A stretch of DNA of 64,000 nucleotides from Acanthamoeba lenticulata. Its lineage: Eukaryota; Discosea; Longamoebia; Acanthamoebidae. Positions 14,145 through 27,688 of this stretch are shown here, piece by piece. The notes under the pieces are model-generated. The model saw nothing but the letters and a program-made list of their open reading frames with translations. It was not told where the DNA came from and searched no databases. Numbering within the stretch: position 1 is the first letter of the stretch; each line of letters opens with the position of its first letter. A program made the translations under genes and the position numbers. The stretch lies in the NCBI GenBank assembly GCA_002179805.1, contig NAVB01000069.1, forward strand, positions 90,652 to 154,651, in the 5' to 3' direction.

Positions 14145-14492
14145 GTGTAGGTAAATGTTGCGTCTTCTGTTGGCCAGACTCGTGCCCGGCTCTTCGCCTT
14201 GGTTGTGTTCCCTACCTCGCGAAAGCACGGAAAAGCAGACAACCAGACCTGGCAAGTTGCCGGCTAGTTTTCGGTGCTGTCGGAAAAAACCTGGAACGGC
14301 AGCAGGGCTCAGTGAAGAGCTGGCAAGAAATAACCAGGCAGGCATCCCTCCTGAAAATTTCCACTGCGCATCCAGCGCCACATTGATATTGTCGATCGTA
14401 ACACCACTTTTAAAAGACCCTCAACCGCACAGAGGGCCACACCATCAGCAACTTCCCCTGTTTAGATTTTAGTATTACTCGCGAGCCCAACG
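14145..14492. promoter_or_regulatory. Shared upstream region between divergent DUSP and CUE-PB1 genes
   Basis: 348 bp separate the two start codons. The right end is AT-richer (TTTAGATTTTAGTATTACTCG just before the CUE-PB1 ATG). No clear TATA box or RNA gene seen; inferred to be a bidirectional promoter from its position. Confidence 0.5.
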
Positions 14493-15797
14493 ATGTCGAG
14501 GCGCGGCAAGAATTCCGTCAAAAGCGCGATGCTGCGAGATGCCAGCCACGCTGTGATGTCGTTTGCTAAGCCTGCTGAACCCAAGACGGTCGCGGTCAAC
14601 AACCATAACCCGTTGTTCCACTACCTTCAGACCATGTTCCCCAACTACGACAACACCGTTCTCCATTCGGTTTTGGAGCAAGAAGGTAATTCGATCGAGA
14701 GGGCCATTGAAGTCTTGCTCAGCTTCGCCGATGCCGAGTCGGCAACCGACGCGAGACCAGGCGAGGAGGTCTCTGTGGATGACTGGATCGAAGACGACAC
14801 GCCTTCGAACGTGTTTGCTGTGCCTGTGATGCCTCCTGTGACTTCGCAGAACAGCGGCCGTGACCATGTCGTCCTCTGCGAGTACCAGAAGAAGAGGAAG
14901 ATCAAGGCTAACAGGCAGCAACGCGCCAAGAGGAGGCAACAGCGCGCTGCCCAGGAGCAAGCGCGCGTGGCTACCCCGCAGCCGAAGAAGAAGGTCAGGT
15001 GGGTGCCTCTTCAGGACTTCATCACCGAAACCAGGAACTCGTTCGACGTACTTCGCGACTACGACGACGACGCAGCCCTGCTGGCCGATCTCCAATCCAA
15101 GCTTGAGTCGCCAACCGACACGCAGGAGACCGATTCTAACGAGGATACCCTTCTGAGCCCCGACGAGATCAGGGAGAGCTGGGAGGAGCTTGAGGCCACC
15201 CTTGCTCACGACGACGACGACGAGGAGAAGGACAAGAAGCAGCTCGAGGCGGACAGCGGTGACGACTTTGTCTCTACCGATGAGGAGTGGCTGCCCTTCA
15301 CGCCGGCACCGCCCTCTGTTGCTCCTTCTTCCGAGGACGAGGCTTTCGTCGTTATTGAGGAGAAGCTGCCGGTAGCTGAACCCGAGGTCTGCGATACGGT
15401 TGCCACTGAGGTGGTTGAGCAGCAGGAGAAGAAGAAGGTGCCTGAGCAAGTGGTTGTTGTCAAGCTCTACTACTCGGCGAGCGACATCCACAGGCTGCGC
15501 TTCCCGAGGAGCGCCTTCACCTTTGCTAAGCTGCACGGCTATGCCGCCACCTACCTCGACAGCAAGTGCCAGCTGCTGGCCAAGGAGGCGCTGCCGCGCG
15601 CCTTTGCGCTCACCTACGTTGACGACGAGGGCGACGTCATCCACCTGTGCTCCGAAGAGGAACTGGCCGAGGCCCTTCGGCTTCACGACGAGGTCTTCTG
15701 GGCCGAGGGCAACCAACCCATCATGCGCCTCCACATCAAGCCGCTCGTCGATGGCGCACTGCATGCTGGCCACGTCACCGCTGGCCGCGCCTGCTGA
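14493..15797 (+). CDS. CUE-PB1 protein with LIR-like motifs (candidate autophagy receptor)
   Basis: A single-exon 434-residue protein, unusual here where most genes are heavily split. Residues 41-79 form a CUE domain with both ubiquitin-contact motifs, MFP at 48-50 and a dileucine at 75-76. Residues 132-170 are a basic helix. Residues 186-318 are acidic and disordered and hold two LC3/Atg8-interaction-like motifs: WEEL at 230-233 and FVVI at 285-288, the latter inside SSEDEAFVVIEE, the classic acidic context. Residues 319-416 form a PB1 domain with the first-strand Lys (K324) and an acidic OPCA motif YVDDEGDV (375-382), that is, type I/II and able to self-assemble. The parts match p62/NBR1 receptors, with ubiquitin-binding N-terminal and PB1 C-terminal. 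Domains are seen; the autophagy role is inference. Confidence 0.82.
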   Translation: MSRRGKNSVKSAMLRDASHAVMSFAKPAEPKTVAVNNHNPLFHYLQTMFPNYDNTVLHSVLEQEGNSIERAIEVLLSFADAESATDARPGEEVSVDDWIEDDTPSNVFAVPVMPPVTSQNSGRDHVVLCEYQKKRKIKANRQQRAKRRQQRAAQEQARVATPQPKKKVRWVPLQDFITETRNSFDVLRDYDDDAALLADLQSKLESPTDTQETDSNEDTLLSPDEIRESWEELEATLAHDDDDEEKDKKQLEADSGDDFVSTDEEWLPFTPAPPSVAPSSEDEAFVVIEEKLPVAEPEVCDTVATEVVEQQEKKKVPEQVVVVKLYYSASDIHRLRFPRSAFTFAKLHGYAATYLDSKCQLLAKEALPRAFALTYVDDEGDVIHLCSEEELAEALRLHDEVFWAEGNQPIMRLHIKPLVDGALHAGHVTAGRAC

Positions 15798-16120
15798 AGC
15801 ACCGCTTGTGTGTGTGTTTTGGGGCACCTTGTGCGCCACGTCGTGACCCCTTGCCCCGGCAGTGGGGCGAGGTGCGGGCTGACCGCGCGCGAGCCCTAAA
15901 AGTCTGTGAATAAACTCTGTGCATAGTCTGTGTTTACAACAAAGCCTGTGGCCAACGCTTCGTCCGTTGGTACTAAGTTACCGCTTGCACAAGAAGATGG
16001 TGAGCTGACTGAACGATCATTGCATTTCTTGGAAGAAAATTGCGCCTTCCAAGAAACAGGCAAACGGGCAAGGTGGCGAATTTGGGCCCAGACGCATAAT
16101 CTGCAATTGGTTGGTTCCCG
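15798..16120. other. Intergenic region after CUE-PB1 gene
   Basis: 323 bp with a T/G-rich start, an AATAAA at about 15908 that could be the polyadenylation signal of the CUE-PB1 transcript, and then the 5' region of the SPIDR-like gene. No gene seen. Confidence 0.5.
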
Positions 16121-27285: not shown

Positions 27286-27356
27286 TGCCAGGACCGGGAA
27301 TTGAACCCGGGTTGTTGGTACCACAAACCAATGTACTACCACTATACTATCCCAGC
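27286..27356 (-). tRNA. tRNA-His (GTG), copy 1
   Basis: Minus-strand cloverleaf: acceptor GCTGGGA/TCCTGGC with discriminator A (A73 as usual in eukaryotic tRNA-His), anticodon stem TTGGT/ACCAA around TTGTGGT (anticodon GTG), T arm CCGGG/CCCGG with TTCAATT. A T5 terminator lies directly downstream on the minus strand. The sequence is identical to copy 2 on the opposite strand. Confidence 0.95.
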
Positions 27357-27617: not shown

Positions 27618-27688
27618 GCTGGGATAGTATAGTGGTAGTACATTGGTTTGTGGTACCAACAACCCGGGTTCAATTCCCGGTCCTGGCA
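27618..27688 (+). tRNA. tRNA-His (GTG), copy 2
   Basis: Identical to copy 1 over all 71 positions, on the plus strand, followed at once by a T6 run as terminator. It ends only about 40 bp before the start codon of the SDR gene, so the tRNA gene lies within what should be that gene's promoter. Confidence 0.95.

Follow-up and report, generated by a model that had tools for sequence, protein, structure and literature searches.

A CUE-LIR-PB1 protein of Acanthamoeba lenticulata as a candidate selective-autophagy receptor beside NBR1

The gene, its relatives and its CUE domain

We present here the analysis of one gene in a window of 64,000 nucleotides of Acanthamoeba lenticulata DNA (contig NAVB01000069.1, positions 90,652 to 154,651 of the forward strand). 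The gene lies at 14493..15797 (+) and, as a sequence-only reading of this DNA had proposed, it is a single intronless gene, a 434-codon ORF in one open frame with an ATG start, encoding a CUE domain, a candidate Atg8-interacting motif (LIR) and a PB1 domain. A possible poly(A) signal, AATAAA, is read from the sequence 112 bases past the stop codon (15909..15914, +). An antisense ORF of 454 codons (14475-15839, -) covers the entire gene, and is probably a by-product of GC-rich codon usage. Further along, two tRNA-His genes lie in opposite orientation about 260 bases apart, at 27286-27356 (-) and 27618-27688 (+).

Seven relatives, P0001-P0007, are found among 5.8 billion proteins searched, with E from 1.4e-119 to 1.7e-47 and 37-51% identity, when the 7,995 candidates with most words in common are scored; a profile search built on these seven, with 7,993 candidates scored, gives the same seven proteins again. 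Together with the window protein they form an alignment of eight rows, six of them full-length. P0006 and P0007 are N-terminally cut and align continuously with the window protein only from about residues 181 and 198, while P0005 is the most distant relative. Five of the six full-length rows begin with MSRRGKN, which supports the start codon. Pfam finds PB1 in all eight rows and CUE in six, both rows missing it being the cut ones.

The genome searched (48.5 Mb, 1,825 contigs) is Acanthamoeba-like by its profilin, whose best PDB match is profilin II (1f2k, 3e-73), followed by profilin I, both being entries of Acanthamoeba castellanii. It holds a second copy of the gene on contig C1617, with a protein 98% identical to that of the window. 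The two copies differ at 16 of 432 aligned codons and by a few in-frame indels, with dN of 0.008 and dS of 0.028, figures that accord with purifying selection but come from very few changes. Over the 5 kb compared, which takes in the flanks, the two contigs have a DNA identity of 96.5%, as would be expected for a second haplotype; the C1617 copy is therefore most simply read as the other haplotype, and a recent gene duplication is not favoured.

The CUE domain occupies residues 39-77 (14607..14723, +; Pfam PF02845), close to the residues 41-79 proposed before, with E of 4e-9 and 36.4 bits against a curated cut-off of 21.1. AlphaFold2 predicts three helices in this region (block pLDDT 78-86), and the closest PDB sequence match, which is weak, is the Tollip CUE (E 0.035). 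The motifs MFP (48-50) and LL (75-76), which we take to be the ubiquitin contacts, are invariant in all full-length rows (6/6), and the proposed CUE domain with both motifs is thus borne out. Beyond it lies a basic region with Lys/Arg runs, predicted as a long helix (residues 125-159; 14865..14969, +; block pLDDT 47-78).

The PB1 domain and the NBR1 of the same genome

The PB1 domain, expected at residues 319-416, is matched at residues 321-417 (15453..15743, +; Pfam PF00564), with E of 1.5e-7 and 31.7 bits against a curated cut-off of 23.6. The full-length AlphaFold2 model is of low confidence (mean pLDDT 50.6) and gives PB1 and CUE matches in Foldseek at E of 0.014 or worse; therefore the PB1 domain was modelled alone, with a mean pLDDT of 81. 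With E limited to 0.001, this model has 30 matches in PDB, presumably all PB1-bearing proteins to judge by their titles (p62, NBR1, p40/p67phox, aPKC/Par6, MEK5/MEKK), and the second in rank is the NBR1 PB1 domain 2bkf, with E of 3e-5 and TM of 0.82 on the target.

The same genome encodes an NBR1. On contig C991 (G000:C991, L033) an ORF of 622 codons matches PB1 (7e-17), ZZ (5e-11) and FW (1e-33), and its C-terminus has a sub-threshold match to UBA_NBR1_C (9e-5; 22.7 bits, the cut-off being 27). In an extract of a review (PMC9582228), the least that defines an NBR1 is an FW domain together with PB1 or ZZ, and the C991 ORF, having all three, therefore belongs to NBR1. Because the genome encodes NBR1, the CUE-PB1 protein is an additional receptor candidate and not the only one of the genome. 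On the whole, PB1 and FW matches lie close together on the same strand in three contigs, C991, C1106 (L034) and C378 (L035); only in C991 do they share one frame, while in C1106 and C378 about 0.7 kb and a difference of frame separate them. C1569 has an FW match of the kind of C378, with no PB1 listed. According to the same review extract, most non-metazoans have a single NBR1 homologue (PMC9582228).

Comparing the PB1 domains, K324 and the OPCA residues D377, E379 and D381 are identical in all 14 rows compared, namely the eight of the family, the genome's NBR1 and five other PB1 proteins, so that the proposed C-terminal PB1 domain with Lys and OPCA clusters is confirmed; D378 also belongs to the OPCA, and E388-E390 follow in the same domain. 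With the strand-1 Lys and an acidic OPCA, the domain is of the mixed type (AB, I/II) and could in principle self-associate. At residues 333-334, all eight family rows have His-Arg, aligned with Arg-Arg of the genome's NBR1. According to an excerpt of PMC6978347, p62 and Arabidopsis NBR1 need a pair of adjacent Arg residues in strand 2 to form filaments. The tandem Arg finger of filament-forming PB1 domains (p62, AtNBR1, TFG) is not found in the family, in an alignment made up of the family and PB1 proteins of the genome itself. The proposed self-oligomerisation is thus plausible from the Lys and OPCA clusters, and weakened by His-Arg in place of Arg-Arg, which makes polymerisation of this PB1 domain on its own uncertain. 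In a tree of 22 PB1 domains, the eight of the family and 14 others from the 40 PB1 matches of the genome, the family is united with support of 100/99, and its place among the 14 other domains is not resolved. The independently built receptor of the sequence-only reading is thus no more than one possibility.

Besides these, PB1 followed by several degenerate UBA-like repeats is found in long single ORFs in 8 of 20 fetched regions (L036, L037, L038, L039, L041, L042, L044 and L046). The UBA matches are below the Pfam cut-off (E of 0.0013 and 0.0026 in the two scanned), and some of these ORFs may be haplotype pairs; they are possibly a second architecture joining PB1 with what may be ubiquitin-binding repeats. 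Atg8 matches are present on four contigs and look, by their scores, like two genes in two copies. One of them, at G000:C64:64470-64874, is on the same contig as the CUE-PB1 gene, about 40 kb off and outside the window, which is probably a coincidence. The ATG4 matches of the genome are split among exons.

Motif cores in the linker

The LIR candidate is SSEDEAFVVIEEKL (residues 279-292; 15327..15368, +), put forward on conservation and predicted disorder, with its FVVI core at residues 285-288 (15345-15356, +) in an acidic/Ser stretch (block pLDDT 27 in AlphaFold2). In residues 200-319, only five of 120 columns are invariant in all eight rows, and these are E234, E283, F285, V286 and I288; such an eight-row count is fair only for the C-terminal half of the linker because P0006 and P0007 are cut. 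Over the whole linker (residues 80-319), 16 of 240 columns are invariant among the six full-length rows. Every row has three to six D/E/S/T residues at positions -6 to -1 before the core, with Asp at position -1 in five rows, Ala in two and Gly in one. The proposed FVVI motif is thus kept in the relatives.

The published xLIR expression, as found in part of PMC5119064, is matched at FVVI by six of the eight rows; the window protein and P0005 fail it by their Ala at -1, and the single xLIR match of the window protein is WEEL instead (1 against 0.29 in shuffles). Between FW and its UBA-like end, the C991 NBR1 carries SESEEEAFEVLELPKKEEE, including EEEAFEVLELP, and the matching segment of the window protein is SSEDEAFVVIEEKLP. 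Since EAFxV[LI] is common to both, the Ala at -1 is also found in the amoeba's own NBR1, whose LIR we infer, by position and sequence, to be the EEEAFEVLELP segment.

The linker has four cores of the form [WFY]xx[LIV], and shuffled linkers have 2.0 on average; their presence is near chance, and the case for FVVI rests on conservation and not on occurrence. The strongest single comparison is that with P0005, whose linker has 47 identities with the window in 170 aligned residues, a further 70 being gapped, while 7 of 10 residues are kept at 280-291. Within residues 200-319, a core with both anchors on invariant columns (one of two cores) arises 63 times when the conservation mask is permuted 20,000 times, and in 4 of 120 rotations. 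Over the whole linker the same test gives 25 in 20,000 for permutation and 8 in 240 for rotation, with a mask that includes columns absent from the cut rows. When only the six full-length rows are counted, FVVI and WVPL, two of the four cores, are those in which both anchors are invariant; permutation reaches this 5 times in 20,000 and rotation once in 240. The rotations preserve the clustering of conserved columns, and the observed value is reached in about 3% of shifts; as the rows are related and the conserved columns clustered, all these figures are guides and not probabilities. A search of the LIR peptide against PDB sequences gives no match at E up to 10, the query being too short to inform. 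Overall, it is well supported that FVVI is conserved in the manner expected of a functional motif, and this motif may be one that binds Atg8.

The sequence-only reading had proposed two Atg8-interaction-like motifs, of which FVVI stands, being kept in all eight rows, and WEEL (residues 230-233; 15180..15191, +) does not. In the relatives this site is WDEF (P0001, P0002, P0006), WEDF (P0003) or WKQF (P0004, P0007), that is, WxxF in six of seven, and P0005 has nothing there; moreover WEEL sits inside a predicted helix (223-248; block pLDDT 82 and 75 in AlphaFold2). We therefore reject it as a second LIR. As a counterpoint, P0005 has WDDL elsewhere (its residue 92), which fits the xLIR expression, and some LIRs accept Phe in their last position, as an excerpt of PMC7615515 states; a second LIR-like motif that shifts its position is possible. 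WVPL was also considered as a LIR, with both anchors invariant in 6/6 full-length rows, but Lys and not an acidic residue precedes its core, and it is treated as part of a separate motif.

A candidate receptor and its alternatives

We propose, with a probability of roughly 0.6, that the CUE-LIR-PB1 protein is a selective-autophagy receptor of Acanthamoeba-type amoebae, working beside a normal NBR1. From the gene, its domain matches, the conservation of its motif and the predicted PB1 fold, we infer the binding steps and the pathway as follows. The CUE domain, with its invariant MFP and LL, would bind ubiquitin on the cargo. The C-terminal PB1 domain, with its Lys and OPCA, would cluster the receptor by weak self-association, by joining the PB1 assemblies of NBR1, or both. 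The F-type LIR, an acidic/Ser run followed by FV[VLF]I, would bring the receptor to the growing autophagosome membrane by binding the lipidated Atg8 there, as suggested by the conservation of the motif and its likeness to the segment of the genome's NBR1, and kinases could tune this binding via the acidic/Ser residues before the core. Ubiquitin binding, Atg8 binding and oligomerisation in combination gave a working synthetic receptor in yeast, according to an extract of PMC8394947. Against the receptor reading we count the Ala at -1 of the window protein and P0005, with WEEL as the window's only xLIR match; the relatives, which are few and mutually related; a WVPL motif at least as conserved as FVVI, which may have another partner; and His-Arg where NBR1 has Arg-Arg in all eight rows.

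The same His-Arg could also mean that the protein is not an autonomous receptor, but a co-receptor or regulator whose PB1 domain attaches to NBR1 or other PB1 assemblies and adds a CUE arm and a LIR to them. Such a PB1 domain has the Lys and OPCA for contact and departs at the tandem Arg tied to polymerisation of p62 and Arabidopsis NBR1 (PMC6978347, seen as an extract). Among the 14 other PB1 domains of the genome, that of NBR1 scores highest when single sequences are compared (29.5 bits, the next being 25.5); by profile, however, NBR1 is level with L052 (35.1 against 35.6 bits), and one Arg plus Lys may suffice for self-association. We hold this explanation to be unlikely, though worth serious weight.

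A scaffold of ubiquitin-linked signalling or trafficking, of PP1, MAP-kinase or endosomal kind, with FV.I as the site for a partner other than Atg8, would accord with a linear motif that the sequence-only reading overlooked. This is KKKVRWVPLQDFI (residues 165-177; 14985..15023, +), a putative PP1 RVxF-like docking site (K-[VI]-x-W). The pattern KK[VI]xW[VM]PLx[DE]FI is kept in 6/6 full-length rows, no other 4-mer of the linker is as conserved as WVPL, and a DNA pattern for KK[VIM]xW[VIM]P[LF] has its only genome matches in the CUE-PB1 gene and its second copy. By the general RVxF expression, the motif resembles a PP1 site with a hydrophobic pair five residues on. We take it to resemble a MAPK D-motif as well, and its partner could equally be a kinase. 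PB1 and CUE domains also occur in signalling and endocytic proteins, and PB1 is common in kinase scaffolds, several of which are among the Foldseek matches. Examples of PP1 RVxF sites are given in part of PMC10807198. On the other side, an acidic/Ser run followed by FV.I is what an F-type LIR normally looks like, and the genome's NBR1 has a similar segment; we regard a scaffold as improbable too; in a receptor, the KKVxWVPLxxFI motif may recruit a partner such as PP1. It is very improbable that the conservation of FVVI is incidental, in a CUE/PB1 protein without autophagy role, since P0005 has lost or changed most of its linker yet retains EAFVFIE, even though such cores are common in shuffled linkers, the relatives are only seven, and some rotations (4/120 and 8/240) likewise place a core on invariant anchors.

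Returning to the receptor reading, we compare the protein with known receptors. In the window protein, the Pfam matches at E up to 10 are CUE, PB1 and a single one to TTC3_9th, below threshold; ZZ, FW and UBA are not among them. This upholds the earlier view of p62/NBR1 parts in reversed order, with CUE at 39-77 and PB1 at 321-417. p62/SQSTM1 has an N-terminal PB1, ZZ, LIR and a C-terminal UBA; the window protein shares the PB1 assembly domain, a candidate LIR and a domain of ubiquitin-binding type, and differs by its domain order, its C-terminal PB1, the missing ZZ and a CUE in place of UBA. With the CUET receptors (yeast Cue5 and human Tollip) it shares CUE and perhaps an Atg8-interacting motif: the CUE is present (E 4e-9; MFP and LL in 6/6 rows) with ubiquitin binding predicted, and FV.I is kept in 8/8 rows, but the window protein misses xLIR there. 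To our knowledge CUET proteins have no PB1 domain; Tollip carries a C2 domain. In Cue5 it is the CUE that mediates oligomerisation, according to the extract of PMC8394947, whereas the window protein would cluster by PB1. The phosphorylation-activated DS-FVEI core of the optineurin LIR/FIR (excerpt of PMC7615515) resembles DEA-FVVI and DED-FVVI; the likeness is of the short motif only, no other domain being shared (domains of optineurin from the extract of PMC8394947).

NBR1, the C991 copy included, shares PB1 with Lys and OPCA, an F-type LIR-like segment and a helical domain of ubiquitin-binding type; in NBR1 an N-terminal PB1 is joined by ZZ, FW and a UBA-like end, while the window protein has CUE at the N-terminus and PB1 at the C-terminus, and lacks the FW and ZZ that would place it in NBR1 (definition in the extract of PMC9582228). 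p62 has the Arg-Arg finger (excerpt of PMC6978347) where the window family has His-Arg. The review extract names two soluble ubiquitin receptors of autophagy, NBR1 for eukaryotes at large and p62 for animals, p62 being confined to metazoans (PMC9582228), and the Cue5/Tollip receptors form a separate class (extract of PMC8394947). A full-text literature search for 'CUE domain' with 'PB1 domain', represented mostly by titles and the starts of abstracts, brings up no description of a single protein with both, and for Acanthamoeba with NBR1, Atg8, PB1 or CUE no such protein is named in the titles among the matches listed. By its sequence, the window protein is neither NBR1 nor p62, and it appears to follow the CUET proteins in combining CUE with an Atg8-type motif, with PB1 added, a function as receptor being what this composition suggests.

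A more speculative picture, which we consider doubtful, is a third architecture of PB1-clustered autophagy receptors that read ubiquitin, in which a built-in PP1 site would reset the phosphorylation of the Ser/acidic stretch that controls the LIR and the His-Arg PB1 would add onto NBR1 filaments; if so, amoebae would use a CUE-LIR-PB1 receptor alongside NBR1 that does not polymerise alone. If the receptor reading itself is true, a bacteria-eating amoeba has, besides the NBR1 that it retains, a natural CUE-LIR-PB1 protein with the same three functions differently ordered, and this protein would be a test of whether a receptor needs no more than ubiquitin binding, Atg8 binding and clustering.
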